Positions 1 through 36,677 of a stretch of DNA of 42,534 nucleotides are shown piece by piece; the first letter of the stretch is position 1; each line of letters opens with the position of its first letter. The position numbers were made by a program, and so were the translations under genes. The notes beneath the pieces are model-generated. The model was not told the origin of the DNA. It saw only the letters and a list, made by a program, of their open reading frames with translations, and did no database searches. The stretch is from Chloroflexia bacterium (GTDB lineage: Bacteria; Chloroflexota; Chloroflexia; Thermomicrobiales; CFX8): assembly GCA_030431755.1 (NCBI GenBank), contig JAUIIK010000033.1:1-42534 (forward strand), given 5' to 3'.

Positions 1-362
1 CGGAGTACACCGTCGACGCGAACAAGCAACTGGCGGTGATCGCGCTGATCGAGAATGTCGCGGCGCTGGACGAGCTGCCCGAGATTCTGGCGGTCGAGGG
101 CATCACCGCCGTCACGATTGGCCCGGCTGACCTGTCGCAATCGCTCGGCCACCCTGGTAACCGGCATCATCCGGATGTCGAAGCAGCCATCGACCAGATC
201 ATCACGACGGCAATCGACGCGGGCGTGCCAGTCGGCATCAACACCTCGACCGGCGCGGACGCCAAGGCAGCCCGCGACCGCGGCTGTCTCCAGACGAGCG
301 TCACTTCCTGGGGTCTACTTGGGAGCGCCTCCCGTGCCTACCTTGCGGCTGCGGCGGAATAA
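1..362 (+). CDS. HpcH/HpaI-type aldolase, C-terminal part (5' cut by window edge)
   Basis: The frame is open from the first complete codon (position 3) to a TAA at 360-362, so the start lies outside the window. The visible ~119 residues fit the C-terminal third of the HpcH/HpaI aldolase / citrate-lyase beta barrel: 'ALIENVAALDELPEIL' (the conserved ALIE strand), 'AVTIGPADLSQSLG' (metal/phosphate-binding loop) and 'HPDVEAAIDQI'. Family members are cytoplasmic class II aldolases that cleave or form 2-keto-3-deoxy sugar acids or related hydroxy-keto acids with a divalent metal. A GTG at 36 is internal and not a likely start. The adjacent leftward operon contains a SelA/DgaE-like enzyme; in known glucosaminate catabolism such enzymes work with a keto-acid aldolase, but the two units converge here, so shared function is only a guess. 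Confidence 0.8.
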   Translation, partial: EYTVDANKQLAVIALIENVAALDELPEILAVEGITAVTIGPADLSQSLGHPGNRHHPDVEAAIDQIITTAIDAGVPVGINTSTGADAKAARDRGCLQTSVTSWGLLGSASRAYLAAAAE

Positions 363-16114: not shown

Positions 16115-16834
16115 TTAAGATCGCCCGGAGGCCTCTTCCGGAGGACGGAAGCGATAGCCAATACCGGGGTCGGTGACGATAAAGCGCGGCCGGGCGGAAT
16201 CCGGTTCGATCTTGCGGCGCAGCTGGTTGATGTACACGCGCAGATAGTTGGTCGAGTCTTCCGAGGCCGGCCCCCAGACCTGGGTCAGCAGCATCTGATG
16301 GGTCATGACCTTGCCGGCGTTCGTTGCCAGCACACGCAGCAGCTCGAACTCGGTCGGCGTCAAGTGGACCTCCGCCCTGTCAATCGTGACGACGTGACCG
16401 GCGAGGTCGATTCGCAGGCTGTCAAAGTCGAGGATGGGATCTGCCTGTGACTCCTGTGTCGTACGCCGCAGCGCCGCCCGGATGCGGGCCAGCAGTTCCT
16501 CCATTCCGAACGGCTTGGTGAGATAGTCGTCCGCCCCGGCGTCCAGCGCCTGCACCTTCTCGCGCTCCTCGGCGTGGGCTGACAGGACGATGATCGGCAG
16601 CTGCGACCATTCCCGGATCTGCCGGATGACTTCGAGGCCGTCAGGAGTGTCCGCTGTTGGGCCCGGCATCTCGAGATCGAGGACGATGATGTCCGGCGGG
16701 TTGCTGGCGGCCAGCGTCAGCGCGCGCTCGCCGTCGGCGGCCAGCTCCACCTGGTAGTTGTTCGCCCGCAGGCCGGCGCTGAGCGCGCGGAGTATCTGAC
16801 GTTCGTCATCGACGACGAGCACTCGTTCGGTCAC
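16115..16834 (-). CDS. kdpE: KdpE-like OmpR-family response regulator
   Basis: The 239-residue protein has a receiver domain (D9/D10, phospho-acceptor D53, S85, K107) and an OmpR winged helix. The winged helix includes LTPTEFELLRVLATNAGKVMTHQMLLTQVWG and an ending PRFIVTDPGIGYRF that closely follows KdpE. KdpE normally activates the high-affinity potassium pump operon kdpFABC; no Kdp pump subunit is in this window. The loop after D53 is longer than usual: about 12 residues separate D53 from the conserved Gly (G66), against roughly 7 in typical receivers, an insertion of about five (GPTADTP region). It overlaps the kinase gene by 4 bases (16831-16834), so the pair is translationally coupled. 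The likely target is the KimA-like gene downstream. Confidence 0.82.
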   Translation of the reverse strand: MTERVLVVDDERQILRALSAGLRANNYQVELAADGERALTLAASNPPDIIVLDLEMPGPTADTPDGLEVIRQIREWSQLPIIVLSAHAEEREKVQALDAGADDYLTKPFGMEELLARIRAALRRTTQESQADPILDFDSLRIDLAGHVVTIDRAEVHLTPTEFELLRVLATNAGKVMTHQMLLTQVWGPASEDSTNYLRVYINQLRRKIEPDSARPRFIVTDPGIGYRFRPPEEASGRS

Positions 16835-18294
16835 GGTTGTGCCACCTGTCCCGCGGGCGGCTCAGCCGTGAACGCTTCGGCCCTGGCCAGCGGTACGGTG
16901 AAGCTGAACCGCGTCCCACCGCCCGGATTCGGTTGCGCCGCGATGCTGCCGCCGTGTGCTTCCACGAACCCGCGGCAGATCGCCAGGCCCATGCCGGAGC
17001 TACGGCTGCGGGGTTGCTTCTCGACGCGATAGAACCTGTCGAAGATGCGCTCTTCGTCACCGGCAGGGATGCCCGGTCCGCGATCTTCAACCCGGAATTC
17101 GAGCATGTCGCCCAGTTTCCTCGCAGCTATCCGGATCTCGTCGTTTGCCGGAGAATACTTCACCGCGTTCTCCAGCAGGTTGGCAAGCACTTCGGAGATC
17201 ATCACGAAGTCGATGTCGATCAGCGTCGATTCGCTCGGCAGATCCAGCCGAACCTCCCGGCCTTCAAGCAAGTGCGCCGATCTATCGAGGACCTCGTTAA
17301 CGACTTCGGCGGGCTCATACCAGTCCCGCGCCAGGTTGAGCGCGCCGGCCTCGATACGCGAGAGATCGAGCAGATTCGTCACCAGCCGGTTGAGCCGGTC
17401 GGTCTCTTCATCAATAGCTTCGAGCAGCTCCAGACGGTCGGCCTCGTCCCAGCTCACGCCGGACTGCATCAACGTCGTCGCCGACGCCTTGATCGACGCC
17501 AAGGGCGTGCGGAGGTCGTGTGAGACGGCGGAAAGCAGCGCCGACTTGAGCTCGTCGGTGCGGCTAAGGATTTCCGCCCGGGTCCGTTGCTCGGTCAGCT
17601 GGCTGCGCTCGATCGCCAGGGCAGCCTGATTCGCGAAGGTGACGAGGAGACGGCTCTCCTCATCATTGAAGGGGCGTCGGTCGTAGTCGCGGACAACGAC
17701 AAGCACGCCGATTGGCTCGTCGGTCGTCCGGATCGGCACGACCAGCGTTTCATTGCCGCGCGGGCTCGACGCGCCATTGCCGAGCTGCAAGCGCCGGGTA
17801 CCGAGCCCCGTCATCTCGCGCTCGTGCAGCGCTCGCCGCGCGGTGGAGAAGAGTTCCCGATCTGTCACGTCGATCCCGTCGTCGGTTGCCGCGCCGACGC
17901 GAAAGCCGTCACCCTCAACAAGCAGCACGGCGCAGCGGTTCAAATCGAACATGCGCTGGACGCGCTCTGCGATCGAGGCCGAAACGCTCTCGACCTCGTT
18001 CGAACGGATCAGCGCCACACTAAGCTGGTAGAGAGTGTCCGTCTGCCGGCTGCGGCGCATGGCATCGCGTGTCCGCTCGCGGGCGCGGACGACGAGCCGG
18101 GAGATGATGATCGAGAGGCCGAGAAAGGCGATGAGAGCCAGGATATCGTGGGTATTGGCGACGAAGAAGGTGTGGTAGGGCGTTGTGAAGAAGAAGTTGA
18201 AGGCGAAAAACGCGCTAGCCGCGCTTGCAATGCTCGCCCGCATATCTGCTACCAGCGCGATACCGGTCACCGCGACGAGGTAGAAGACCAGCAC
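16831..18294 (-). CDS. KdpD-like sensor histidine kinase (DUF4118-GAF-HisKA-HATPase), 5' end uncertain
   Basis: From the GTG at 18294 the product is 487 residues. Membrane helices 2-4 of the DUF4118 bundle are within ~70 residues (FFAFNFFFTTP is typical of KdpD), then come a GAF domain (~95-230), HisKA with H259 in SAVSHDLRTPLASIK, and HATPase boxes LLENAVKYSP, DRGPGIP, IFDRFYRV and GMGLAICRG. The KdpD N-terminal KdpD/USP domains are absent. In-frame sequence continues upstream to a TGA at 18420 and encodes a clear extra membrane helix (TIVAALFAIIAVTGLTL), the expected first DUF4118 helix, but contains no ATG, GTG or TTG. The true start is therefore either non-canonical in 18345-18417 or reached from ATG 18421-18427 by a frameshift. 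It is coupled to kdpE. Confidence 0.8.
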   Translation of the reverse strand: MLVFYLVAVTGIALVADMRASIASAASAFFAFNFFFTTPYHTFFVANTHDILALIAFLGLSIIISRLVVRARERTRDAMRRSRQTDTLYQLSVALIRSNEVESVSASIAERVQRMFDLNRCAVLLVEGDGFRVGAATDDGIDVTDRELFSTARRALHEREMTGLGTRRLQLGNGASSPRGNETLVVPIRTTDEPIGVLVVVRDYDRRPFNDEESRLLVTFANQAALAIERSQLTEQRTRAEILSRTDELKSALLSAVSHDLRTPLASIKASATTLMQSGVSWDEADRLELLEAIDEETDRLNRLVTNLLDLSRIEAGALNLARDWYEPAEVVNEVLDRSAHLLEGREVRLDLPSESTLIDIDFVMISEVLANLLENAVKYSPANDEIRIAARKLGDMLEFRVEDRGPGIPAGDEERIFDRFYRVEKQPRSRSSGMGLAICRGFVEAHGGSIAAQPNPGGGTRFSFTVPLARAEAFTAEPPAGQVAQP

Positions 18295-19669: not shown

Positions 19670-19717
19670 ACGGTGGACAACCCCTCCGGGGCTACGGAAG
19701 CGAGGACTGACGAAGCG

Positions 19718-20401
19718 ATGCGAGTGTTGGTTGTTGAAGATGAAACACGCATGGCCGAGTTCATCAACAAGGGCTTGACCGAGGCAGGCTACGCCGTCGA
19801 TATCGCCGAAGATGGCGAGCGGGGCCTGGCCTGGACCAATGTCGTCGACTACGACCTCATCATCCTCGACATCATGCTGCCGCGCCGCGATGGCCTCGAT
19901 GTCTGCCGCACGCTCCGCGCTCGCGGTAATCAGACGCTGATCCTTATGCTGACGGCGCGCGATGCCGTTGAAGACCGTGTGCTCGGCCTCGACAGTGGCG
20001 CTGATGACTACCTGGTGAAGCCCTTCTCGTTTGCCGAGCTCGTCGCGCGGCTGCGGGCGCTGGCGCGGCGTGAGCCGGTCCTGACTGGACCGGTGCTGGA
20101 GATCGCCGACCTGACGCTCGACACCCGGACACGCGAAGTGACGCGGGCCGGGACGCCGATCGAACTGACCAACAAGGCTTACGCGCTGCTTGAATACCTC
20201 ATGCGGCATCCGAATCAGGTGCTGACCCGGACGATGATTGGCGAGCATATCTGGAACTATGACTTCGACAACGCGACCAACGTCATCGATGTGCATATTC
20301 GCTATCTTCGCAAGGCTGTCGATGATCCCTTCGAGCCGAAGCTCATCCAGACGGTGCGCGGCGCAGGCTATCGCATCTCCGACCAGGCGCCGATGAGCTA
20401 G
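19718..20401 (+). CDS. OmpR-family response regulator (MprA/CusR-like)
   Basis: The 227-residue regulator has a receiver (VVEDE acidic pocket, phospho-acceptor D51 in LIILDIMLP, K101 in DYLVKPFSF) and an OmpR winged helix (ELTNKAYALLEYLMRHPNQVLTR split by the turn, then VDVHIRYLRKAVDD, RGAGYRI). I prefer ATG 19718, which puts the first receiver strand at residue 2 and has GAGG about 12 nt upstream; a GTG at 19673 would add 15 residues without domain content. The kinase gene starts 2 bp after its stop. Its probable box sits just upstream, and the PepSY gene at 30833 may be a second target. The signal is unknown; the MprA/CusR branch mostly answers envelope or metal stress. Confidence 0.9.
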   Translation: MRVLVVEDETRMAEFINKGLTEAGYAVDIAEDGERGLAWTNVVDYDLIILDIMLPRRDGLDVCRTLRARGNQTLILMLTARDAVEDRVLGLDSGADDYLVKPFSFAELVARLRALARREPVLTGPVLEIADLTLDTRTREVTRAGTPIELTNKAYALLEYLMRHPNQVLTRTMIGEHIWNYDFDNATNVIDVHIRYLRKAVDDPFEPKLIQTVRGAGYRISDQAPMS

Positions 20402-20403
20402 CA

Positions 20404-21837
20404 ATGGGCAATCCCCTGCGCTCGATCCGCGTCCGGCTGACTCTCTGGCATGTCGTGGCGCTGGCCTTGTTACTGGCCGTCTTCAGCGCCGGCGTCTATT
20501 TCGCGTTACGGCGCGAGCTACAGGAAAACCTCGACAACAGCCTTGAGAGCCGGGTCGCGGCGCTGTTGCCACTGGTCGAGGTCTCGGGCGGGACGCCGCG
20601 TCTGCCACCGAACGTCGCGCCGGTCGAGCTCGACGAAGATGGTGACGATGAAGCTCCCGAGCCGGATGACGAGGTCTTCGTGCGCTTGTTCGACGATACC
20701 GGCGCGCTCGTTCTCGACACCAGCGAGACAGACGAGGTCGGCCAGCTCGCTACCGCCGACGTTGCCGTGGCGCTTGAGGGCTCCCCACAGTGGCTGACGC
20801 TGAGTAGTGAGGACGAGGACGAGGACTTTCGCGTGCTCATCGCGCCGGTTGTGCGGGATGGTGAGGTCGTCGGCGCGCTAGCCGTGGGTGAGTCTGACGA
20901 GGATGTGGCCGAGGCGCTCGACGCGCTATTGACGATCGTCGGCGTCGCCTTGCCCTTGTCATTGTTGGCTGCCGGCGGCGTCGGCATCTTCCTCTCCTCG
21001 CGCGCCCTCGCGCCGATCGACCGCATCACCCGCGCGGCGCGCGACATCTCAGCCGCAGATCTCGGTCAACGGTTGGACATGGATCTGCCGGATGATGAGC
21101 TGGGCCGCTTGGCCCGCACCTTCGACGACATGCTGGAGCGGCTCGACGATGCGTTCCGCCGCCAGCGTCAGTTCACGGCCGACGCCTCGCATGAGCTACG
21201 CACACCCCTCTCGATCATGCGCGGCCAGATCGAGGTCGCGCTGGCCCGTCCCCGCGGCCCTGACGAGTACGTCGAGACGCTGGAGGCCGCCGCGGAGCAG
21301 ACCGAGCGGCTGATCGCTCTGACGACGAGTCTGCTGACGCTCGCCCGAGCCGATGCCGGTCGGATCCCGCTCCAGCCGGAGCCGCTGGAAGTCCGGGCGC
21401 TTGTCGAGCTGACCGTTGAGCAGGCGCGCCATCTGGCCGAGGAGCGGGGAGTCGCGCTTGCGGTCGCAGGCCCCGAGGCGTGGATTGAGGCCGACACCAC
21501 ACTGCTGATTCAGCTCCTGCTCAACCTGCTCGACAATGCCGTGAAACACACGCCGTCCGGTGGCCAGGTGCGGGTGACATGGACAACGGAGGCAGACGAT
21601 CTTCAGCTGAAGGTCACTGACACCGGCGAGGGCATCCCATCCGAGCACCTGCCGCACATCTTCGACCGCTTCTACCGGGTCGACGTCGCCCGCAACCGTT
21701 CCGAGGGTGGCGCCGGCATCGGCCTCGCCATCGCCCGGTGGATTGCCGAGGCCCACGGCGGCACGATCTCAGCGACCAGTCGGCCGGGGGCGGGTTCGAC
21801 CTTCCTGGTCACGCTACCTGGAACGGACGCCTCGTGA
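20404..21837 (+). CDS. Membrane sensor histidine kinase (HAMP-HisKA-HATPase) with acidic sensor domain
   Basis: The 477-residue kinase has TM1 (~13-34), an extracytoplasmic domain (~38-172), TM2 (~174-197), HAMP (~198-250), HisKA with H263 in TADASHELRTPLSIM, and HATPase boxes LLNLLDNAVKHTP, DTGEGIP, IFDRFYRV and GAGIGLAIARW. The sensor domain is strongly acidic, with Asp/Glu clusters at about 75-90 (ELDEDGDDEAPEPDDE) and 135-141 (EDEDED). Such clusters could bind cations or cationic peptides, as in PhoQ-like sensors; that is inference. The gene follows its response regulator by 2 bp and is convergent with the SARP-like gene 42 bp away. Confidence 0.9.
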   Translation: MGNPLRSIRVRLTLWHVVALALLLAVFSAGVYFALRRELQENLDNSLESRVAALLPLVEVSGGTPRLPPNVAPVELDEDGDDEAPEPDDEVFVRLFDDTGALVLDTSETDEVGQLATADVAVALEGSPQWLTLSSEDEDEDFRVLIAPVVRDGEVVGALAVGESDEDVAEALDALLTIVGVALPLSLLAAGGVGIFLSSRALAPIDRITRAARDISAADLGQRLDMDLPDDELGRLARTFDDMLERLDDAFRRQRQFTADASHELRTPLSIMRGQIEVALARPRGPDEYVETLEAAAEQTERLIALTTSLLTLARADAGRIPLQPEPLEVRALVELTVEQARHLAEERGVALAVAGPEAWIEADTTLLIQLLLNLLDNAVKHTPSGGQVRVTWTTEADDLQLKVTDTGEGIPSEHLPHIFDRFYRVDVARNRSEGGAGIGLAIARWIAEAHGGTISATSRPGAGSTFLVTLPGTDAS

Positions 21838-21879: not shown

Positions 21880-24800
21880 CTATCTGACGCGATCAAGTAT
21901 CTTGTCGAGCGTCAACGGGCCGTCCGGCATCGAGGCGTCGTCGACAATGCCCGCGCTCGCTCCGTGCGCCATCTCCGGTAGCACCTGGAGTATTTCGAGC
22001 TTCGTTGCATACCAGATTTCTGGTTGTGCCTGAATGAAGCTGCAATAGGCAGTGAGCCGGGTTGCGTCGTCGCGCCCGCTGGGTGCTGCCAGTAGGGCGC
22101 ATAGCCCTTGCGCTGCCAGGTCGAGCAGTAGCGGAGTCGCACCCGTCTCGCGGACCAGCTGAATCGCATCATGCAACGTTGATAGTGCGTCTTCGGCACG
22201 GCCCAGCGCTAGCATCGCTCTTGCAACCGCGCCCAGCGCGCTGGCGCGGCCCCGGATGTCTTCGAGTTCTTCTGCCAGTGCGAGTGCTTGGTCGGCGTCC
22301 TCCAGCGCCTCGTCAACTCGATGCTCCGAGAGCGCGACCTGGGATCGAACGACGCCCCACTGCACAATGCCGGGCAGGAAGCTATGCGCTTCGAATACCT
22401 CTTTGCACTGCCGCAACCGCTCCAGGGCATCATGCGAGTCGCCACTCAGCAGCGCTATCTCAGCCAGCCGGAGCGAGGCTATCGCGCCAACGATATACCC
22501 GCCCCGTTCCTGCGCGACCTGCCGGCATTCGATGAGGCGACGATGCGCCTCCGCGAGATCGCCCTGTCGTAGCGCGAGACGCCCCAGGCCTTCGAGCCGA
22601 GCGGGCAGGTGTTCGACGCCGAGCTCGCGGTAGAGGGCGAAACTCTCCTCCATATGGTCCTGAGCCCGCTGGAAGTCGCCAGTCTCGCAAGCGACTTCGC
22701 CAAGATTTCCAAGCTCGCGGGCGACGCCCTCCCAGTCGTGTAGCGACCGGCGGATCTCCAGGCTAGCGGCAAAGCCACGCCGCGCAGCCAGGAAATCGCC
22801 AACGTCAAAGGCGATGCCGGCCAGCCTGTTTCGCGCCGTCGCCTCACCGTAACGGTCGCCCGTGCGTTGGGCCTCCTCCAGGGAGCGCTGATAGAGGCGG
22901 CTGGCTTCCCGGAAGTTGCCGGCCATGTTTGCGATGCGCCCTTTGATATCGAGGCTGAATGCGAGCTGGTGCTGCGCCTGATGACGGGCCAGCAGCGCGT
23001 CTGCGGCAGCCAGGCTCGCTTGCGCCTGCACTGGCTGCCCGAGCATCAGCATGAAGCGCGCCTTGCGCCCGAGGATGCGCCCCATCAGGATGTCGGCGTC
23101 GACTTGCCCCTCGAGCTCCGATTGCAGCGCCGCTTGTGCCATGTCCATCAGCTGTAGTCCGGGCGCCGGCAGCTGCCGCAGGGCGTAGAACAGGCCGACG
23201 CCGTCCAGGGCGCTGCCGATCGACGCGAATTGCCGGCGGCTCACTAACCACTCCCAGGCAACCCGCAGATTGCTCCGCTCGGCATCGATCAACTTCAGCG
23301 TATCCGCCTGCTCTACTCCCTTGAGGCGCGTCTCGGCGTTTGACATGAGGTCGGAGTAGTATCGAGCATGGCGGTCTCTGGCGGCTGTAGCCAGGTCAGG
23401 ATCCTCTGCAAGGCGCTCACCGGCGTATTGCCGCAGGACTTCATGTAGCGCGAAACGGCTTGTCCCGTCGCGACGTACGAGCGATTTGTCGATGAATTCC
23501 AGCAGGTCGGGTAGTTCGGCATTGGCCGTCGCCCTGGCGGCAGCGGCGGTGAAGCCGCCCGAAAAGACTGAGAGCGCCGCGAATGTGCCCTGCCCGACAG
23601 CGTCAAGCAGATTCCAGGAACCGTCGAATACGGCTCTCAGACTCTGGTGGCGTTCGGGACGGTCGCGAGCCGCCATCCCAAGGAAGTCGAGATTCTCGCC
23701 GATTCGGCTGGCGATCTCCGCGCATGTCATCAGCCGCGCCCAGCTTGCCGCCAGCTCGATCCCGAGCGGCAAGCCGTCCAGCTGGCGGCAGATGTCCGCG
23801 ATCTGCTTGAGCTCCTCATTTCCAGGTAGAAAGTCGGGCTGGACCTGGCGGGCCCGGTCGACGAAGAGCCGGACTGCATTCGAACGCCGCAGATCCTCGC
23901 TGCCGCCTCCGTCAGCCAGCAGCCCGGCCAGCGGAATGTTCCATGCGGCTTGCAGCGCCAGGCGCTCGCGGGATGTCACCAGAATGGTGACGCCGCTGAC
24001 GTGCTCGAGCAGCCCGCTGATTACCGGGGCCGCATCGATCAGGTGCTCGAAATTGTCAAGCAGCAGCAACGCCGTCGCATCGGAGAGCTGGCGCTGTAAC
24101 TGGACCAGCGGGTCGGTCGATCCGGAGAGCGAGAAGCTGTAGGCCTCGGCGACAGCCTGGGGAATCTGTCCGACATCCTCGATCTCTGCAAGCATGGCGA
24201 TACCGGCAAGGTCGTATGCGTGGCTGTGCTCTTCAAGCGCTCGGAGCGCGAGCCGTGTCTTGCCGCTCCCGCCTGGGCCGGTCAGCGAGATCAGCCTGAC
24301 GGATTGATCTTGAAGGTATCGCGCCAGCAGCGCCAGCTCGACGTCGCGGCCAATGAACGAGGTCGCCGGTCCACGGACGCGGAGCCTGGGCACAGGCTCC
24401 GAATCTGGCTCGGCGATGACGAGCGGCCGGGCTGTCGCGGCCTCGGCGTATGCGCCGTCACGGATCTCCTGGTAGAGCCTGATCGTCTCCTGCTCCAGCG
24501 CAACGCCGAGCTCGTGTTCGAGCATCTGCGCGAAGGCGTCGAACTGGACCAGCGCGGCGTTGCGCCGGCCTGCCAGAACAAGTTCACGGGCATAGCTCCG
24601 AAACGCGGTTTCGTGCCAGGGCTCGATCTCCAGCAACCGTTCCAGCGCGCCCGCTGCCGCGTCATGTTCCCCGGCGGCGGCGTGCAGCCCGGCTAGCTGC
24701 TCGAACGCCGCCATCGCCCGGGAGCGCAGCCGTTCCCGCTCGGCAATGAGCCACTCATCGAAGGACGGCGCAGCGCGTACCGTGAAGCCGGCCAGGAAAT

Positions 24801-25212
24801 CGCCGGCATAGAGGGCACAGGCGCAGCTGAGAGTCTCTACGTCCAGCCCTGTTGACCCCGGGGCCGCGCCGGTCGCATCCAAAAAACTCGCCAAATCCGA
24901 GCTAATCGGCGCGGCGTCGGCAAGTGCGACATGGGTCCGGCTCGTTTCAAGAAAGCCCGGTCCAAGCGTCTGACGCAGGTTTGAGAGCACGACGCGCAAG
25001 CTGGCCCGGGCGTCTCGCTCGGAGACTTCGCCCCACAGCAGGCCCGCGAGGTACTCGCGGGTGTGGCTGCCGCCGGTGGCTACCAGAAACGCGACGAGCG
25101 CCGGCCCTTTCGATGAGACGAAGCCGCCGACGGGCTCGCCGTCGCGCCGGATATCCAGACCGCCAAAGAGCTGCAATTCAATTGAGGACCCCACCGGCCA
25201 GCTACCCCGCAT
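21880..25212 (-). CDS. SARP-like transcriptional regulator: winged helix + BTAD + STAND ATPase + TPR
   Basis: The 1110-residue protein follows the AfsR-type plan. An OmpR-like DNA-binding domain (~11-100: IELQLFGGL, LLWGEVSERDARASLRVVLSNLRQTL) is followed by a bacterial transcriptional activation domain (~105-255, ending QETIRLYQEI), then FIGRDVEL, a P-loop GPGGSGKT (312-319) with a LLLLDNFEHL Walker B. NB-ARC-like helices follow, and a long TPR region occupies the last ~450 residues. SARPs bind direct heptamer repeats and recruit RNA polymerase; the ATPase/TPR part gates this. It is divergent from the small gene/surface-protein pair, and three heptamers at 11-bp pitch lie 32 bp from its own ATG. 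The ligand is unknown. No LuxR domain is fused, unlike the other two large ATPase regulators in the window. Confidence 0.88.
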   Translation of the reverse strand: MRGSWPVGSSIELQLFGGLDIRRDGEPVGGFVSSKGPALVAFLVATGGSHTREYLAGLLWGEVSERDARASLRVVLSNLRQTLGPGFLETSRTHVALADAAPISSDLASFLDATGAAPGSTGLDVETLSCACALYAGDFLAGFTVRAAPSFDEWLIAERERLRSRAMAAFEQLAGLHAAAGEHDAAAGALERLLEIEPWHETAFRSYARELVLAGRRNAALVQFDAFAQMLEHELGVALEQETIRLYQEIRDGAYAEAATARPLVIAEPDSEPVPRLRVRGPATSFIGRDVELALLARYLQDQSVRLISLTGPGGSGKTRLALRALEEHSHAYDLAGIAMLAEIEDVGQIPQAVAEAYSFSLSGSTDPLVQLQRQLSDATALLLLDNFEHLIDAAPVISGLLEHVSGVTILVTSRERLALQAAWNIPLAGLLADGGGSEDLRRSNAVRLFVDRARQVQPDFLPGNEELKQIADICRQLDGLPLGIELAASWARLMTCAEIASRIGENLDFLGMAARDRPERHQSLRAVFDGSWNLLDAVGQGTFAALSVFSGGFTAAAARATANAELPDLLEFIDKSLVRRDGTSRFALHEVLRQYAGERLAEDPDLATAARDRHARYYSDLMSNAETRLKGVEQADTLKLIDAERSNLRVAWEWLVSRRQFASIGSALDGVGLFYALRQLPAPGLQLMDMAQAALQSELEGQVDADILMGRILGRKARFMLMLGQPVQAQASLAAADALLARHQAQHQLAFSLDIKGRIANMAGNFREASRLYQRSLEEAQRTGDRYGEATARNRLAGIAFDVGDFLAARRGFAASLEIRRSLHDWEGVARELGNLGEVACETGDFQRAQDHMEESFALYRELGVEHLPARLEGLGRLALRQGDLAEAHRRLIECRQVAQERGGYIVGAIASLRLAEIALLSGDSHDALERLRQCKEVFEAHSFLPGIVQWGVVRSQVALSEHRVDEALEDADQALALAEELEDIRGRASALGAVARAMLALGRAEDALSTLHDAIQLVRETGATPLLLDLAAQGLCALLAAPSGRDDATRLTAYCSFIQAQPEIWYATKLEILQVLPEMAHGASAGIVDDASMPDGPLTLDKILDRVR

Positions 25213-25243
25213 TTACGTTCTGCCCGATGTCCAACGGTTCTAG

Positions 25244-25284
25244 TTTACGGCCTCTTTACGGTGACTTTGCGATCGCCAGATAAC
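25244..25284 (+). promoter_or_regulatory. SARP-type operator: three direct heptamers at 11-bp pitch ahead of a -10
   Basis: TTTACGG at 25244-25250, TTTACGG at 25255-25261 and TTTGCGA at 25266-25272 start exactly 11 bp apart. A -10-like GATAAC (25279-25284) follows about 6 bp later, with no consensus -35. Known SARP sites (AfsR, ActII-ORF4 and DnrI promoters) are heptamer direct repeats separated by 4 bp and ending about 8 bp before the -10. The orientation points at the operon starting at 25354, and the BTAD regulator is the divergent neighbour. Confidence 0.68.
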
Positions 25285-25353
25285 GTGCGGACATGATTCC
25301 GGTCTGACGCCGGAATTGATGGTGGTTTGGCTGTTCCAGAGAGGGCGGAACGA

Positions 25354-25614
25354 GTGGACCAGGGCCGGAAGGACGCTGACTATCGCGCCTACTTGCTGCG
25401 CTGCCGGCGCAGCGGTCCGGGGCCAGGCGCAGACGTTAGCTGGCGCTGTAGCCTGGAAGATCCTCACACCGGCCGCCGGCGAACCTTCGCCGACGTCAAC
25501 GCGCTGCTCGCCGCCCTGCGCCAGGATCTGGCCGGTAGCGACGGCAGCGCCCGGCGGCACGGACCAGCGTCACCACCCACGCAAACCCAGGAGGGGGAAG
25601 GAAACCATGTCTAG
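25354..25614 (+). CDS. Small conserved-looking protein preceding the surface protein
   Basis: The 86-residue protein (GTG start with GAGGG 8 nt upstream; a TTG at 25327 would add nine residues) has a compact core. DYRAYLLRCRRSG is followed by VSWRCSLEDPHTGRRRTF and ADVNALLAALRQDL, then a disordered Gly/Ser/Pro tail. I know this pattern, 'YRAYLLR..W..SLEDP.TG....F..L..L...L', from short hypothetical proteins of Chloroflexota often found beside regulators; no function is established. It is soluble and has no signal peptide. Its stop overlaps the start of the secreted propeller protein by 8 bases, so the two are co-translated, and both should read from the SARP-type promoter. Confidence 0.68.
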   Translation: MDQGRKDADYRAYLLRCRRSGPGPGADVSWRCSLEDPHTGRRRTFADVNALLAALRQDLAGSDGSARRHGPASPPTQTQEGEGNHV

Positions 25615-28600
25615 TCGAACGCGCCTTGCAGCTGCGGGCACGAGTATGTTCGTCATCGCGTTGCTTCTGACCGTGTCGGCGTTGCCGCATCCGACCCTCG
25701 CATTCAGCGGCGGACTCAACGTCGGGGGCGCTGAGATCTGGACGCAGGCGCATTCCAATCTATCCGGCATCAGCCCGGAAAAAGACGACCAGTTTGGTGG
25801 TGTGAAGGACGATGCGGGCACCAAGCTGTTCTCAGACACCCTCGCATCCGGCGACTTCGATGGCGACGGCTTCTACGACCTGGCCATCGGCACGCCCTAT
25901 GAGAACCTGGGCGGCAAGACTGACGCCGGCATGGTCGTCGTGCTCTACAGTGACGGTCCGCTTGGTATCTGGACCAACGGCTACCAGGCCATCGACCTCG
26001 ACGACGGTAACCTTCCGGGAAACAAGGAGTACAACTTCCTTGGCGCATGGATGACCGTCGGCGACTACGATAACGATGGCTACGACGACCTCGCGATCAG
26101 CGCTGGGGGTAGTGGCCTGAGCCCGACGATCCAGAAGCTCTACATTCTCCCCGGAGGTCCATCGGGGCTGTCGCGCAACACCTTCCAGACGATCGACGTC
26201 GACATCCTTGGATGGGACGGCGCGCTGGCGTCGGGCGATCTCAGCGGCGATGGCTACGATGACCTCGCGGTAAGCAGCCCGACATTCGGCAAGGCCAGCC
26301 TCTACTGGGGCTCCGGCTCCGGACTGGTGAATGGTGGCTGTCCCGAGAGCGGCGCGTTCGGCTGCCCGACAACCTTCGGCGATGAGGAGCTCATCAGCGA
26401 ACTCGGGTTGACCGATGTCAAAGTGCCAGGGGTCGATAAGTCGCTCTTCGGCAATTCGCTGGCCATCGGCGACCTCAACAATGATGGCTATGACGACCTC
26501 GCCATTGGCGATCCCTATGCGGATGCAGAGGCTAACTGCGCCGATGTTCTCGGGTTCCGGGTCGATTGTGACGAAGGCGGCGTCTACATCATCTACGGCT
26601 CTTCAAGTCTGGATGATTCCGGTGGAGACTGGAACGTTACCGGCGAATTCGTCCACCAGGAGGATCCAGGCTCGGATACCAACGAATGGCACGACGCCTG
26701 GGGCCGTTCGGTAGCCATCGGTGACTTCGACGGCGACGGCTACGGCGATCTGGCCGTCGGCGCGCCTCAGGAGGACCACGGCTGCGTTCAAGCGATCCTC
26801 ATCTGTGACAACATCGGCAAGGGATCGATCACCGTCATCTACGGGAACAGCGGCGGCCTGTCGAACAGTACGAAGCGCATTACCCAGGAAAACCTTAGCG
26901 GCTTCTCGAACGAGGCCAATGACCGTTTCGGCGAGTACCTCGCGGTTGGTAACTTCAACGGCGACGGGGCCGACGATCTGGCCATCGGCATTCCGGATGA
27001 AGACATCAACAAGGATGATGGCAAGGCCGAGAACTCCGGCGCGGTCGTTGTGCTCTACGGCACGGTCGGGGAAGGGCTGAAGGGCGGAGAGTATCAGGGC
27101 TGGAGTCAGAAAGACTTCGACGGCGCGTCCGCCGAGGACGATGACCAGTTTGGCCGTGGCGTCGTCGCCGGCGACTTCACCGGCAACGGTGGCGACGATC
27201 TGGCCGTCGCCGTGCCCGGTGAGAACCTCTCAAGTGGCGACAACGACGATGATGGCATGGTGGTCGTCTTCTACGGCACCGGCGACACGAGCGCTCCATC
27301 GATCACCGCGAACATCAGCGGTACCCAGGGTGACAACGGCTACTACACGTCGGACGTTACTCTGAGCTGGACCATTGATGAACCGCAGTCGCCACACACG
27401 CTCTCAACGTCCGGCTGCGGCTCGGTGTCCGTAACGACGGATACGACGGGCGTCAGCTACACTTGCGAGGCGACATCAGCGGGTGGCACGGCATCGAAGA
27501 CGGTCACGATTCCCCGAGACGCCACACCGCCAACCATCGACAGTGTCGATGTTCCACCCGCCAACGACAACGGCTGGCTCAGCATCTATCCCACCGTGAC
27601 CTGGCACTGTAGCGACGCGACCTCCGGGGTCGTCGATGCCGCCCACAACGCGTCGCTCGAGGTTGAAGGCGAGAACCTCGCCTTGAGCAGCGGTTGCACC
27701 GACAAGGCCGGGAACGAGACGAAGACTATTGAGGGACCGTTCAACGTCGATGTCACCGACCCGGTCATCGCCAACTTCGACTTCAACCCTGCGAACGCCG
27801 CCGGCTGGCACAACACGCCGGTCGTTGCCACCTGGAACTGCACTGACGCGCTCTCCGGGCCGGCGCAAGCCTCCGGCAGTCAGACGCTCGATCAGGAGGG
27901 CGCGAGTCAGTCGCTCAATCCCGGCTGCGCCGATCTGGCCGGCAATACTGCCTCCCATGTCGAGGCCGGGATCAACATCGACCTGACCGCGCCGGTCGCT
28001 TCACATACCGGCCCCTATGTCGCAAACGAGGGCGATACCGTCACCCTCGACGGAACTGGCTCGAACGACGCGCTGTCAGGGATCGCCAGCACCGCCTGGG
28101 AGGTCTCCGGAACAAACGACTTCGACGACGGCGACCCGGCCAGCTACTCTGCGGTCAATGGACCCGAGACCAACCCTGTCCGGCTCAAGGTCATCGACGT
28201 TGCCGGCAACGAAACGATCGTCTCGACGACGGTCGATATCGCCAACGTCGCCCCAGCCATTACCTCGCACGTAGTCTCGCCCGACCCCTCCCAGGAGGGT
28301 GTCGATCAGGTCATGGCCATTGCCGACTTCACCGACCCAGGTGTGCTTGACAGCCACACTTGTGAAATCGATTGGGGTGATGGAACGGCCCCGGTGGCGG
28401 GCACGGTGACCGGCAAGCGCTGTTCAGCCTCTCACACCTACGCCGACAACCACCACGTCGGAACGCCATACGAGGTGACGATCACAGTCACTGATAACGA
28501 TGGTGACAGCGATGAGATCACTGAGATCCAAACGGTCAACAACATCCCTCCGTCACTTGCAACCCCGGTCGTGGCCCCCGCGCCGTCGTCCGAGGGCGAA

Positions 28601-29416
28601 GCAGTTACGCTCAGTGCGGACTTCACTGATCCCGGCACGCTCGACACGCACACCTGTGTGATCGACTGGGGTGACGGCACGCCGCCGGCAGCCGGGGTGA
28701 TCGCGAACATGAACTGCTCAGCGAGCCACACGTATGCCGATGACAATCCATCGAACTCGGCGTCGGACGACTACACGATCACCGTCACCATCACTGACAA
28801 CGATGGTGCCGCGGATCAGAAGAGCGTCGTCCAGACGGTCAACAACGTCCCGCCCAGCATCGATGCGATCAATGTCCCGGCGGCCGTCGACCTGGGTCGA
28901 TTGGTCGAGGTGAGCGTCGCCGCCAGCGATCCCGGCGCAGCCGGGGATCCGCTCACGTACGAGTTCGACTGCGATGGCGACGGTGTCTTCGAAGTCAACG
29001 CTGGTAGCGCGAACAGCTACAAGTGTTTCCCGGATCAGACGACGCTCTCGCCGTCGATCTTCGTCCGGGTGAGTGACGATGACCTGGGGATCACGGTGAG
29101 CGAGGTTGAGCTCTACGTCGAGCAGCACTTCTGCGCCAGCTTCATGACCGGCCGGCTGAGTGACGGCGGCCAGTGCTCCAGCGGCGAGATGCAGATCACA
29201 CTCGGGCCGGACTCGGCGGTGCTCTTCTGCATGAACATGATGACTGGCGCACTGCACTACTCATCGGCGGCGGCTTGCTCGACCTATTGGTACGGAATCC
29301 AGGTTCCAGCCGTGAATCAGACGAGCGTCTGTGTGAGCTACTACACCTCGCTCCTCAGCTATCGCTTCACCGGCTGCACAGCCTCTGAGTACGAGCGGAA
29401 GATCCCGGCAGCCTGA
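25607..29416 (+). CDS. Secreted FG-GAP beta-propeller / PKD multidomain protein with cysteine-rich C-terminal repeats
   Basis: From ATG 25607 (SD AGGAGGGGGAAGG just upstream) the product has 1269 residues. A signal peptide (~1-32, hydrophobic MFVIALLLTVSAL, cleavage after TLA) comes first. Seven FG-GAP repeats (~37-560) each carry a DxDxDG-type calcium loop followed by (Y/D)DLA(I/V), enough for one seven-bladed integrin-like propeller. Ig-like modules with TPPTIDSV/DVTDPVI boundaries and paired cysteines follow to ~800. A linker module comes next, then two near-identical PKD-type repeats with DWGDGT and CSASHTYAD (~880-1060), another Ig-like module, and three short Cys-pair repeats (1174-1269). 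It has no LPXTG or membrane anchor, so it is secreted or held non-covalently. Adhesion or ligand binding is likely. Confidence 0.85.
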   Translation: MSSRTRLAAAGTSMFVIALLLTVSALPHPTLAFSGGLNVGGAEIWTQAHSNLSGISPEKDDQFGGVKDDAGTKLFSDTLASGDFDGDGFYDLAIGTPYENLGGKTDAGMVVVLYSDGPLGIWTNGYQAIDLDDGNLPGNKEYNFLGAWMTVGDYDNDGYDDLAISAGGSGLSPTIQKLYILPGGPSGLSRNTFQTIDVDILGWDGALASGDLSGDGYDDLAVSSPTFGKASLYWGSGSGLVNGGCPESGAFGCPTTFGDEELISELGLTDVKVPGVDKSLFGNSLAIGDLNNDGYDDLAIGDPYADAEANCADVLGFRVDCDEGGVYIIYGSSSLDDSGGDWNVTGEFVHQEDPGSDTNEWHDAWGRSVAIGDFDGDGYGDLAVGAPQEDHGCVQAILICDNIGKGSITVIYGNSGGLSNSTKRITQENLSGFSNEANDRFGEYLAVGNFNGDGADDLAIGIPDEDINKDDGKAENSGAVVVLYGTVGEGLKGGEYQGWSQKDFDGASAEDDDQFGRGVVAGDFTGNGGDDLAVAVPGENLSSGDNDDDGMVVVFYGTGDTSAPSITANISGTQGDNGYYTSDVTLSWTIDEPQSPHTLSTSGCGSVSVTTDTTGVSYTCEATSAGGTASKTVTIPRDATPPTIDSVDVPPANDNGWLSIYPTVTWHCSDATSGVVDAAHNASLEVEGENLALSSGCTDKAGNETKTIEGPFNVDVTDPVIANFDFNPANAAGWHNTPVVATWNCTDALSGPAQASGSQTLDQEGASQSLNPGCADLAGNTASHVEAGINIDLTAPVASHTGPYVANEGDTVTLDGTGSNDALSGIASTAWEVSGTNDFDDGDPASYSAVNGPETNPVRLKVIDVAGNETIVSTTVDIANVAPAITSHVVSPDPSQEGVDQVMAIADFTDPGVLDSHTCEIDWGDGTAPVAGTVTGKRCSASHTYADNHHVGTPYEVTITVTDNDGDSDEITEIQTVNNIPPSLATPVVAPAPSSEGEAVTLSADFTDPGTLDTHTCVIDWGDGTPPAAGVIANMNCSASHTYADDNPSNSASDDYTITVTITDNDGAADQKSVVQTVNNVPPSIDAINVPAAVDLGRLVEVSVAASDPGAAGDPLTYEFDCDGDGVFEVNAGSANSYKCFPDQTTLSPSIFVRVSDDDLGITVSEVELYVEQHFCASFMTGRLSDGGQCSSGEMQITLGPDSAVLFCMNMMTGALHYSSAAACSTYWYGIQVPAVNQTSVCVSYYTSLLSYRFTGCTASEYERKIPAA

Positions 29417-29435
29417 TCGTTCGGGACCCGCTCAC

Positions 29436-29472
29436 CATCGCCCGGGCAACTCGAATGGTTGCCCGGGCGATG
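29436..29472. terminator. 15-bp perfect hairpin between convergent genes
   Basis: CATCGCCCGGGCAAC (29436-29450) pairs perfectly with 29458-29472 around a 7-nt loop, 20 bp after the surface-protein stop and 44 bp before the convergent HAAS gene end. A bidirectional terminator is likely, although no U-tract follows. Confidence 0.65.
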
Positions 29473-29516
29473 TCGTCATCGAACGTGATGCATACGCTTG
29501 TGTCGAGTTGTCAGGG

Positions 29517-30224
29517 TCAGCCTCCCAAAGACCGCAGGGCCCGTCGCGATGATCTCTCTCCAACATTGATGGCGCAACCAAGTGCTGCCCCTAGCAGGGC
29601 CGGGATGAGCTGCATGGCGTGAATGACCATGTGGGCCAGGGAGTCCTGGGCCAACCAATCGAAGCGCGTCCCGGGCGGGTTCAGGTAGGTCCTGCCCCAG
29701 CCTTCGTAGAGATCCGGAGAGACCGCGCGATCAAATACGATCCAGGTAGCGAGCATCACAATCGGGACAACCGCGGTTGCCCGCCATGTCCGTGCCACGG
29801 CTGCCGCTACCCCGGCGACCAGAAACAACGCCATATACACGAGCAGCGTCGCCAACGCCTGCCCTCCGATCGGTAAGGTCTGTGGGGAGCCGTGGCCGTC
29901 GAGCAAGAGCGCAAATGCGGACGTCGATCCAAGAGCTGCGCTGGCTATGCTGGCAACTGCGCGCTTGTTTGGCGGTAAGAAGCGGGCGCGGCGCATGTCC
30001 CAGGCTGCGCGCAGCCCATTGCCGACCTCTTCCGATGGTCCGAATTGTTCCAGCGCGCCAGCTACTGCTTCAGATTCCGACAGCCCCTGGTCAATGTGGG
30101 CGGCTATTAGGCTCTCGAGATGCTGCCGGAGCTCCAGTAGCTCCTCGTCGCGTCGTTCCCGCGGGACTCCGCGGAGCCTCTGTGCGATAGCGTCGAGATA
30201 CTCGTCCAGGCGTGGATCATGCAT
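29517..30224 (-). CDS. HAAS-domain membrane protein (PadR partner)
   Basis: The 235-residue protein starts with a HAAS-type signalling helix bundle (~1-75: RRDEELLELRQHLESLI, GLSESEAVAGALEQFG), then has about four membrane helices (~88-110, 122-143, 148-165, 196-215) and a basic tail. HAAS (heat-shock/adenylate-cyclase-associated, DUF1700-like) proteins are routinely encoded beside PadR regulators and are thought to signal through them. It overlaps the PadR gene by 8 bases (30217-30224), so the pair is coupled. It probably responds to envelope or antibiotic stress; no transporter is adjacent. Confidence 0.8.
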   Translation of the reverse strand: MHDPRLDEYLDAIAQRLRGVPRERRDEELLELRQHLESLIAAHIDQGLSESEAVAGALEQFGPSEEVGNGLRAAWDMRRARFLPPNKRAVASIASAALGSTSAFALLLDGHGSPQTLPIGGQALATLLVYMALFLVAGVAAAVARTWRATAVVPIVMLATWIVFDRAVSPDLYEGWGRTYLNPPGTRFDWLAQDSLAHMVIHAMQLIPALLGAALGCAINVGERSSRRALRSLGG

Positions 30225-30555
30225 TTGAGCTGCCCTTCACGCGCAACACCGACTGGACTGCGCCGGCATAGGCTTCCCAGCGCCGCACACGCTCCGCAAG
30301 CTCACGCGCGCCGGCATCGGTGAGGGTGTAGACCTTCCGCGCCGGACCTCGCTCAGGCGTCTCCCACGCCCCCGCAATGTGCTTGGCCTCTTCAAGCACG
30401 CGCAGCGCCGGGTAGAGCGAGCCTTCGCGCATACGCAGCACAGCGCCGCTCTTACGCTCCACCGCCCGGGCGATTGCGTAGCCGTGGGTCGGTTCCTCGC
30501 TCAGCACAGCCAGAATCAACGTGGGAATATCTCCCCGTGGAACGTCCCGGCTCAT
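30217..30555 (-). CDS. PadR-family transcriptional regulator
   Basis: The 112-residue protein is a PadR winged helix: LILAVLSEEPTHGYAIARAVE, MREGSLYPALRVLEE (recognition helix), GPARKVYTLTDAGARELAERVRRW (wing and dimer helix). Most PadR proteins are repressors of neighbouring membrane or efflux genes and of themselves. The upstream 259-bp region (30556-30814) is shared with the divergent PepSY gene. No clean PadR operator could be picked out there. Confidence 0.9.
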   Translation of the reverse strand: MSRDVPRGDIPTLILAVLSEEPTHGYAIARAVERKSGAVLRMREGSLYPALRVLEEAKHIAGAWETPERGPARKVYTLTDAGARELAERVRRWEAYAGAVQSVLRVKGSSNA

Positions 30556-34009: not shown

Positions 34010-34199
34010 GCTGCATGGACCTGCACTCGCGCGGCCGTCCGCGCCAGCCGCGCGCGTCGACACTACGGTCCCGGGCAGTCGGCTGGGGTGTTTGTCAGCG
34101 CGGCATACTATTATGGTTGGCTGAGACCATGTGACGTTGCGTGCCGGCCGGGTTGGTCGGGTGCAGATGTAGGCAGTGGAGGAGGCTGTTGCCGGAACC

Positions 34200-36677
34200 A
34201 TGTCGACTCTCCCTGTGCCGCTGACATCGTTGATCGGGCGTGACCGGGAGCTGGCCTGGGTGCTGGAGGCCCTGGCGCAGCCGGATGTGCGGCTATTGAC
34301 GCTGACCGGCCCCGGCGGCACCGGCAAGACACGCCTGTCGACGCAGGTCATCGCCGAAGCGGGCGAGCGTTATTCCGACGGCATCGTCTTTGTCTCGCTC
34401 GGGTCGGTCATCGAGCATTCGATGGTCATGGCGGCAATCGCCCGGGCACTGGATGTGCGCGAGTCGAGCGAGCAGTCGCTCGGCGATGCCGTTACGAGCT
34501 ATCTCCAGGACCGCCATACCCTTCTAGTGCTCGACAACTTCGAGCACGTCGTCGATGCCGCGACGGTTGTCTCGGATCTGATGCTGGCTTGCCCACTGCT
34601 CGACGTGCTGGTGACGAGTCGCATCGCGCTGCATATCCGTGGTGAGCGGGAGTACCCGCTGAGCCCGCTGCCGCTGCCCGATCCTGGCGAGTATCACTCG
34701 GTCGAATCGCTGGAGCAGAACAGCGCCGTGACGCTTTTTGTCGAGCGGGCGCGAGCATTGAACCCGCGCTTCGAGCTGGACGAATCCAACGGCGAGGCGA
34801 TCGCGTTGATCTGTACCCGCCTCGACGGGCTGCCGCTGGCGATTGAGCTGGCGGCAGCCCGGACGCGCATGCTGCCGCCCCCGGCGATCCTCGGCCGGCT
34901 CGAACGGCGCTTCTCGCTCTTGACCGGCGGCGCGCGCGATCTCCCGGATCGCCAGCAGACGCTGCGCAACGCCGTCGCCTGGAGCTACGATCTGCTGACC
35001 GACGACGAACAGAAGCTCTACCGCCGTCTCTCGATCTTTCGGGGTGGCTGGACCATCGAGGGCGCAGAGCACGTCGCCGGGACACCGCTGACCGGCGAGG
35101 TCGAGATCGACGTCTTCGAGGGCCTCTCGGCGCTGATTGACCATAATATCGTCCGGCCGGAGGACCAGCACGACGAGCCGCGTTTCACGATGCTGGAGAC
35201 GATCCGCGAGTACGGATTCGAGCGCCTGGAGGAAGCGGGGGAGGCCGCCGAGGCCGGCGAGCGCCATGCCGGCTACTATGCGCGGCTGGCGGAGCAGGCT
35301 GAAACGGACCTGACCGGAGCCAACCAGCAGTTGTGGTTGGAGCGGCTCGAAGGCGAGCACAACAACCTGCGCCTGGCCCTGACCTGGAGCCTCGCTGACC
35401 CGGCGCGGACCGAGCTTGGGATGCAGATCGCGACCAGGATCTGGCGCTTCTGGTCCTGGCATGGCCATCTGCGCGAGGGTCGCCAGTGGTTCCAGCAGTT
35501 GCTCGACCGCGCCAACGAGCCGGGCGTGGATGTGCTGCCGTTGCTCCTGGCGAAGGCGCTCAACGCCGCCGGTGTGCTCGATCTCGTCGTCGGCAATCTC
35601 GACCAATCCGCCGAGCTGCACGAGCAATGCCTGGAGCTTGCGCGTGAGCTGGCGGATCAGGAGCACATCGCCAAATCGCTCGGGAATCTCGGCGTCGTTG
35701 CTCACAAGCTGGGCCGCTACGACGACGCGACGAAGTGGACCGAGGAGGTCCTGGCGCTGGCCCGCGAGCGCGACGATCAGTGGACGATGTCGTTGGCGCT
35801 CCACAATCTCGGGGTCAACCTCTTCGCCTTGAGTGAGTGGGATCAGGCAGCCGAACGGTCGCAGGAGAGCCTGGCGCTGTCGAAGCGGCTGGGGAACGAA
35901 TCGAACGTCGCCAAGGCGCTGATGAACCTGACCCAGATCGCGATTTTGCAGGGTGTCGACGTGCAGGCTGAAGAACTTGTCGGCGAATCGCTCGAACGCA
36001 GCCGCCAACTCGGCAACAAGCTCGATATCGCCGACGGGCTCTGGTTCCAGGCCGAGATCGCTCGTCGCCGTGATGATCTGGATGCTGCACTGAGCCTGTT
36101 CCGGGAGAGCCTGAAACTGTTCCACGAGCAGGGCGCTCTCGACAGCGTCTCGCGTGCGCTGGAAGGCCTCGGCCAGGTCGCCTGCCACCGTGGGGCGCCG
36201 CTGACGGCAACGCGGCTCCTCGGCGCAGCTGAGACGTTGCGGGAGCGAACCAAGTCGCCCTTGCTGCCCCCGTACCGTGCCGATCACGAGAGCGCCGTCG
36301 CCAGTCTGCGGAGTTTTCTTGACGACGACGATTTCGACGCAGCCTGGTCGGCCGGTGCCGGACTACCCCTGGAAGACGCCTTGCAGCTGGCCGCGACTGA
36401 CTCCGCTGAAGCGATTGTCGAGATCCCACAGCTTCAGGCCGGAACCGCCGAACGGTCCGCCGAGCCTCCCGACGCCGCCGAACGCTGGGGCATTACGCCG
36501 CGCGAGATGGACGTCATCGAGCTGCTCGTCGAGGGCCGCACCAACCAGGAGATCGCTGACCAGCTCTTCATCACCCGCCGTACCGCCACGACCCACGTCA
36601 GCAACATCCTCAACAAGCTCGGCCTCGACTCCCGCACCGCCATCGTCGCCTGGGCCGTCCGGGAGGGCGTGGCGTAA
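34200..36677 (+). CDS. LuxR-family regulator with N-terminal STAND ATPase and TPRs
   Basis: From ATG 34200 the product has 825 residues; GTG 34176 would add eight. [11 protein letters not shown] is followed by the P-loop GPGGTGKT (37-44), a Walker [11 protein letters not shown], and NB-ARC-type motifs ([35 protein letters not shown]). A TPR region of about 400 residues follows, then a C-terminal LuxR helix-turn-helix beginning [15 protein letters not shown] with [15 protein letters not shown]. It is the same broad class as the 983-residue protein at 7454-10405, but its ATPase is closer to the NB-ARC type used by the SARP-like protein. A 51-codon membrane ORF is coupled to its stop (TAATG). 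Target genes are unknown. Confidence 0.88.

Follow-up and report, generated by a model that had tools for sequence, protein, structure and literature searches.

In a 42,534-nucleotide stretch of Chloroflexia DNA (the window), three short direct repeats lie in the gap between the gene of a large regulator and an operon transcribed in the opposite direction, and the question raised by this locus is whether the gap serves as an operator of the SARP type and, if so, which genes it controls. In promoters activated by SARP proteins the repeats follow each other at 11 bp, the 3' repeat is placed 8 bp from the -10, and the afs box overlaps the -35 (PMC10936776). The gap (25213-25353) is very probably an activator operator of this type, belonging to an AfsR-like regulator that would switch on the operon of a small protein and a secreted protein.

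The operator and its promoter

The features of the locus are collected in Table 1. The three heptamers are separated by 4-bp gaps, which gives an 11-bp register, 11 (or 22) bp being the spacing of the heptameric direct repeats at SARP-activated promoters, and the third heptamer differs from the other two at two positions. Its distance to the predicted -10 and its overlap with a poor -35 are likewise those of a SARP-activated promoter. No -35/-10 pair of the sigma-70 type was found in 24900-29600, which fits the expectation for an activator-dependent promoter. Transcription of the divergent operon is predicted to start near 25293-25295, with a leader of about 60 nt. A first-pass annotation of this DNA had placed the heptamers at 25244, 25255 and 25266, 11 bp apart, in a gap common to a BTAD/ATPase/TPR regulator and the divergent operon, and had recognized in them the geometry of a SARP operator. 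The sequence agrees with these positions and with the common gap, and the geometry matches the rule of PMC10936776; only the distance to the -10, which had been put at about 6 bp, has to be corrected to the 8 bp that were measured. A further TTTACG(T) is present at 25212-25218, on the regulator start codon and 32 bp upstream of heptamer 1, i.e. one bp short of three 11-bp turns, and could represent either an additional weak site or a chance match.

Table 1 Features of the divergent locus (positions in the window)
Feature	Position	Strand	Basis
AfsR-type (large SARP) regulator, 1110 aa; SARP domain (wHTH + BTAD), NB-ARC/AAA P-loop ATPase, TPR array	21880-25212	-	Pfam, AfsR alignment, AF2 model
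Heptamer 1, TTTACGG (upstream repeat)	25244-25250	+	Sequence; pattern searches of window and genome
Heptamer 2, TTTACGG	25255-25261	+	Sequence; pattern searches of window and genome
Heptamer 3, TTTGCGA (3' repeat)	25266-25272	+	Sequence; pattern searches of window and genome
8-bp spacer TCGCCAGA, 3' heptamer to -10	25273-25280	+	Sequence; 8-bp register recurs at operator loci of relatives
Predicted -10, TAACGT	25281-25286	+	Sequence; inferred from AfsR geometry of PMC10936776
Gene of the small protein (86 aa), from GTG to TAG	25354-25614	+	Family alignment, profile search, predicted fold
Secreted protein of 1269 aa with a signal-like N-terminus, an FG-GAP propeller (seven stretches) and an Ig/PKD region	25607-29416	+	Pfam, N-terminus

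For a single locus that was picked post hoc, a chance repeat in an intergenic region has to be considered. Three TTTRCGR elements at the 11-bp register, with up to 3 mismatches allowed, match once in the window, however, where 0.01 matches are expected from shuffled sequences. In a pattern search of the genome to which the window belongs, the TTTNCG triple at this register occurs once in 5.1 Mb (a reversed-pattern control gave none), adjoining the one BTAD gene that this genome has, and the TTTRCGR pair at 11 bp is limited to the two overlapping pairs of the window site. A chance origin, already disfavoured on these counts and also by the phylum-wide statistics given below, is therefore most improbable.

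The regulator

The regulator has the composition of a large SARP of the AfsR type, with an N-terminal SARP domain, a central NB-ARC/NOD ATPase and C-terminal TPR units in about 1000 residues in all. Its translation starts at ATG 25212, or possibly at GTG 25194. The BTAD domain is recognized by Pfam at 3.8e-21 (76 bits against a cut-off of 22) and the TPR array by TPR_12 (5.7e-23) and TPR_MalT (1e-14); the Pfam matches to AAA_16 and NB-ARC are significant but just under the curated cut-off, and the Walker A motif GPGGSGKT is intact at residue 312. The sequence match to AfsR spans residues 14-599, and an AlphaFold (AF2) model of residues 1-260 (mean pLDDT 93) matched, at E<=0.001 in the PDB, only chains of AfsR (E 1e-11) and EmbR (E 2e-9). 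The base-contacting residues T88 and R92 of AfsR (PMC10936776) align to V74 and N78 of the regulator in an alignment read by eye. The base contacts of AfsR can thus not be transferred to this protein, and the changed residues are in keeping with the different sequence of the operator.

The closest full-length homologue of the regulator (38%) is encoded at locus L072, where the arrangement ATAACGA-4-TGAACGA-8-TACGCT is followed by a 54-aa open reading frame and then by a secreted protein. The window itself encodes two more STAND regulators, at 34176-36674 and 7454-10405, which are of the LuxR type (NB-ARC/AAA, GerE).

Conservation of the operator geometry

Five genomes of the same family contained neither a close orthologue of the regulator nor a TTTNCG triple, and the geometry of the site was therefore tested in place of literal conservation of the heptamers. 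BTAD regulators were gathered by sequence from genome contigs, mostly of Anaerolineae, Caldilineae, Thermomicrobia and other Chloroflexota with few from other phyla, and further ones from whole genomes of the family, order and class of the window. This gave 106 non-redundant upstream regions of 300 bp, for which the exact coordinates of the regulator starts were used. Heptamer pairs with at least 6/7 identity were present at 11 bp in 71 of these regions, as compared to 19-47 at other spacings from 8 to 45, and pairs with full 7/7 identity in 32 as compared to 0-14. When a composite site was defined as heptamer-4-heptamer-(6..10)-TAnnnT on the strand pointing away from the regulator, 43 of the 106 regions carried it at 11 bp and 63 lacked it at the threshold used. 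Other spacings from 8 to 30 gave 0-6 regions, except for 9 at 22 bp and 12 at 23 bp (two turns), and dinucleotide shuffles gave a mean of 1.65 and a maximum of 5.

When the -10 is taken as the anchor for the loci, self-identity at 11 bp is highest (0.75-0.96) from position -14 to -10, and the core is close to T-R-A-C-G. The exact 8-bp register with at least 5/7 heptamer identity is found at 45 of 48 operator loci. The heptamers themselves vary by locus (TGAACGA, CAAACGA, TTGACGA, GACAAGG and others). Loci with an operator are distributed over at least 10 GTDB families of the class and also occur in records of Anaerolineae, Thermoflexales and Ardenticatenaceae. The first-pass annotation had proposed conservation of the heptamers at divergent loci as a check, and the outcome is divided: spacing, distance to the -10 and orientation are conserved, whereas the sequence of the heptamers is not.

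The similarity of the operators correlates with that of the wHTH domains when a register shift is allowed (Mantel r = 0.23, p = 0.0003, with shared ancestry not fully removed), and the correlation is not significant in a fixed register without shift (p = 0.077). For cognate pairs of regulator and operator, just such a rise of operator similarity with the similarity of the DNA-binding domains is predicted. This is of importance for the main rival explanation, namely that a response regulator of the OmpR/PhoB type binds the repeats instead of the SARP regulator. Proteins of that type have the winged-helix fold in common with it, and direct repeats of 7+4 bp close to the -35 serve them as well. 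At afsS, PhoP uses repeats that are also those of AfsR (PMC10972967), and two response regulator/histidine kinase pairs are encoded nearby (19673-21837 and 16115-18294). The composite site, however, tracks the BTAD regulators and co-varies with their DNA-binding domain, while it was found upstream of none of 23 LuxR-type STAND regulators, which lack a SARP domain, from the same genomes. Moreover, the single occurrence of the heptamer pair in the genome is an ill fit to a global response regulator. Binding by a PhoB-like protein is thus disfavoured and, in our opinion, unlikely.

Alternatively, the operator could mainly serve to control the regulator itself, by autorepression or autoactivation, with the operon being incidental. 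The common gap and the short distance (31 bp) between heptamer 1 and the start codon of the regulator are compatible with this, and 11 regions carry a composite site on the strand towards the regulator, which is somewhat above the numbers for other spacings. Against it, in the 43 regions the -10 at a fixed distance is on the strand that points away from the regulator, while the offset spectrum for the opposite strand is flat, and genes of the small-protein family that have no BTAD gene nearby carry the operator upstream as well (see below). Autoregulation as the main function is accordingly regarded as improbable, and an activator site for the divergent operon is the preferred reading.

Two other observations were made in these regions. 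At L015, L024 and L072 no more than a few bases separate the predicted -10 from the start codon of the divergent gene, which suggests leaderless transcripts. At L138 (G124:C884), two BTAD regulators are mutually divergent, an open reading frame of the small family overlaps the gap and the operator points at one of the regulators, so that a regulator cascade is possible.

The divergent operon

Domain searches support the view of the first-pass annotation that the presumed target consists of a small protein and a secreted protein of 1269 residues, and not of a biosynthetic gene cluster such as is controlled by the SARPs of antibiotic clusters. The end of the small gene (TAG) overlaps the ATG of the large gene by 8 nt, and translational coupling is probable. 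The operon is immediately followed, on the opposite strand, by a PadR regulator next to a HAAS-like membrane protein (29517-30555).

Homologues of the small protein that share the motif W-R-x-S-L-E-D-x-x-T-G-E-R-x-G-F-A-D-L-x-x-L-x-x-F-L are encoded divergently from BTAD regulators at L015, L016, L024 and L034, which argues that the small gene is not a chance open reading frame. The family is present in 22 of the 106 regions overall, in a few of them not as the first gene but as the second or third. When 19 members were aligned, searches of Pfam, NCBIfam, PHROGs and PDB returned nothing that could be accepted as a match, and the structural model (beta-beta-beta-alpha, pLDDT 80) gave no convincing match in the PDB. 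A class-wide profile search detected the family at 48 places in 28 of 158 genomes, with a BTAD gene within 1.5 kb at 16 of the 30 loci examined. At four loci without a BTAD gene within this distance (L231, L239, L240, L243), a SARP-type operator is nevertheless found upstream of the small open reading frame, which suggests that these are trans targets of SARP regulators. The operator of L243, TTTACGA-4-TTAACGA-8-TATAGT, is very near to the window site in its heptamers, and at L231 the gene after the small one encodes a signal-like N-terminus.

The 1269-aa protein contains two PKD domains, and no anchor motif was identified in it; judged from its domains, it may be an adhesin. Secreted FG-GAP proteins are encoded divergently from regulators in the window and at L134 (with a small gene), L144 and L194, and such proteins face SARP-type operators in at least four genomes. 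Other large divergent genes encode beta-helix proteins (L201, L208), a LamG/LRR/fn3 protein (L142) and other propellers (L184, L207), and the set also includes FAD oxidases, an MFS transporter and isocitrate lyase. The possibility that operators mark secreted targets was rejected. When secretion was called by a simple hydropathy test, 14 of 33 large divergent genes with an operator call and 10 of 27 without one looked secreted (p = 0.79), so that secreted targets are not singled out by the operator. The use of the family for a surface protein, which had been considered unusual, is so relative to Streptomyces; among the relatives analysed here, in contrast, secreted targets are frequent. Secreted proteins divergent from regulators at L142, L147, L177, L207 and L208 end in a similar V-Y/F-L-P-L-x-x-R/K tail, which is possibly involved in sorting or anchoring.

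Relation to known SARP systems

Among the known systems that come closest is AfsR of Streptomyces coelicolor with its afs box (PDB 8HVR, 8K60, 8JKE; PMC10936776). The window regulator shares with AfsR the SARP-NOD-TPR architecture, the sequence of the SARP and NOD parts and the fold of the SARP domain, and in both operators direct repeats at 11 bp overlie the -35, at a distance of 8 bp from a poor -10. The AfsR repeat, however, is CGTT(T/C)ATCG, as compared to TTTACGG in the window, where there are three repeats and the base-contacting residues differ. Furthermore, AfsR acts on afsS, whereas the target here would be a divergent local operon for a small and a secreted protein, in a member of the Chloroflexota.

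The cluster-situated SARPs DnrI and ActII-ORF4 (reviewed in PMC10972967) also act through three heptamers with short gaps and overlap with the -35, but they are small SARPs without the ATPase/TPR half and control antibiotic biosynthesis. In the SARP-LAL regulators PimR and SanG, an N-terminal SARP domain is combined with a large ATP-binding half, and heptameric repeats are used, although the targets are polyene or nucleoside antibiotic genes (PMC10972967). The three repeats of PimR have 4-bp gaps, as in the window, but do not overlap the -35 (PMC10972967).

Proposed mechanism

A mechanism for the window operon can be envisaged in which two or three SARP domains of the regulator occupy adjacent 11-bp repeats and thereby lie over the -35 region, the promoter having no more than a weak -10. 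The bound domains would provide sigma region 4 and the polymerase with a docking surface in place of the -35, as in AfsR, and this docking would turn on the operon that encodes the small protein together with the secreted FG-GAP/PKD protein. Until a signal or the ATP state frees it, the SARP domain may be kept inactive by the ATPase and TPR parts, again as in AfsR. Most likely, the regulator is a local switch that has the window operon as its main target.

A wider use of this arrangement is possible, and we propose it tentatively. Chloroflexota might employ AfsR-type SARP-STAND regulators as local switches of one operon, with the beta-beta-beta-alpha protein of 60-90 aa as a dedicated part of the module. 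The latter could, for example, take part in feedback on the regulator or assist the exported protein with which it is co-transcribed, and the whole would represent a previously undescribed cassette for regulation plus surface display.

Implications

Regulators of the BTAD-STAND type are numerous in Chloroflexota, and the open-licence literature that was searched yielded no assigned targets for them, nor anything relevant on SARP/BTAD proteins in Chloroflexi or on surface targets. The SARP promoter rule, known from actinobacteria and from antibiotic clusters, holds beside these regulators with diverging heptamers. A small protein family without a match in the libraries, probably co-regulated with exported proteins, has come to light in this way. 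The conserved geometry provides a sequence rule by which the targets of BTAD-STAND regulators can be read straight from genomes, and the dozens of natural pairs of regulator and operator offer material for decoding the specificity of SARP proteins.
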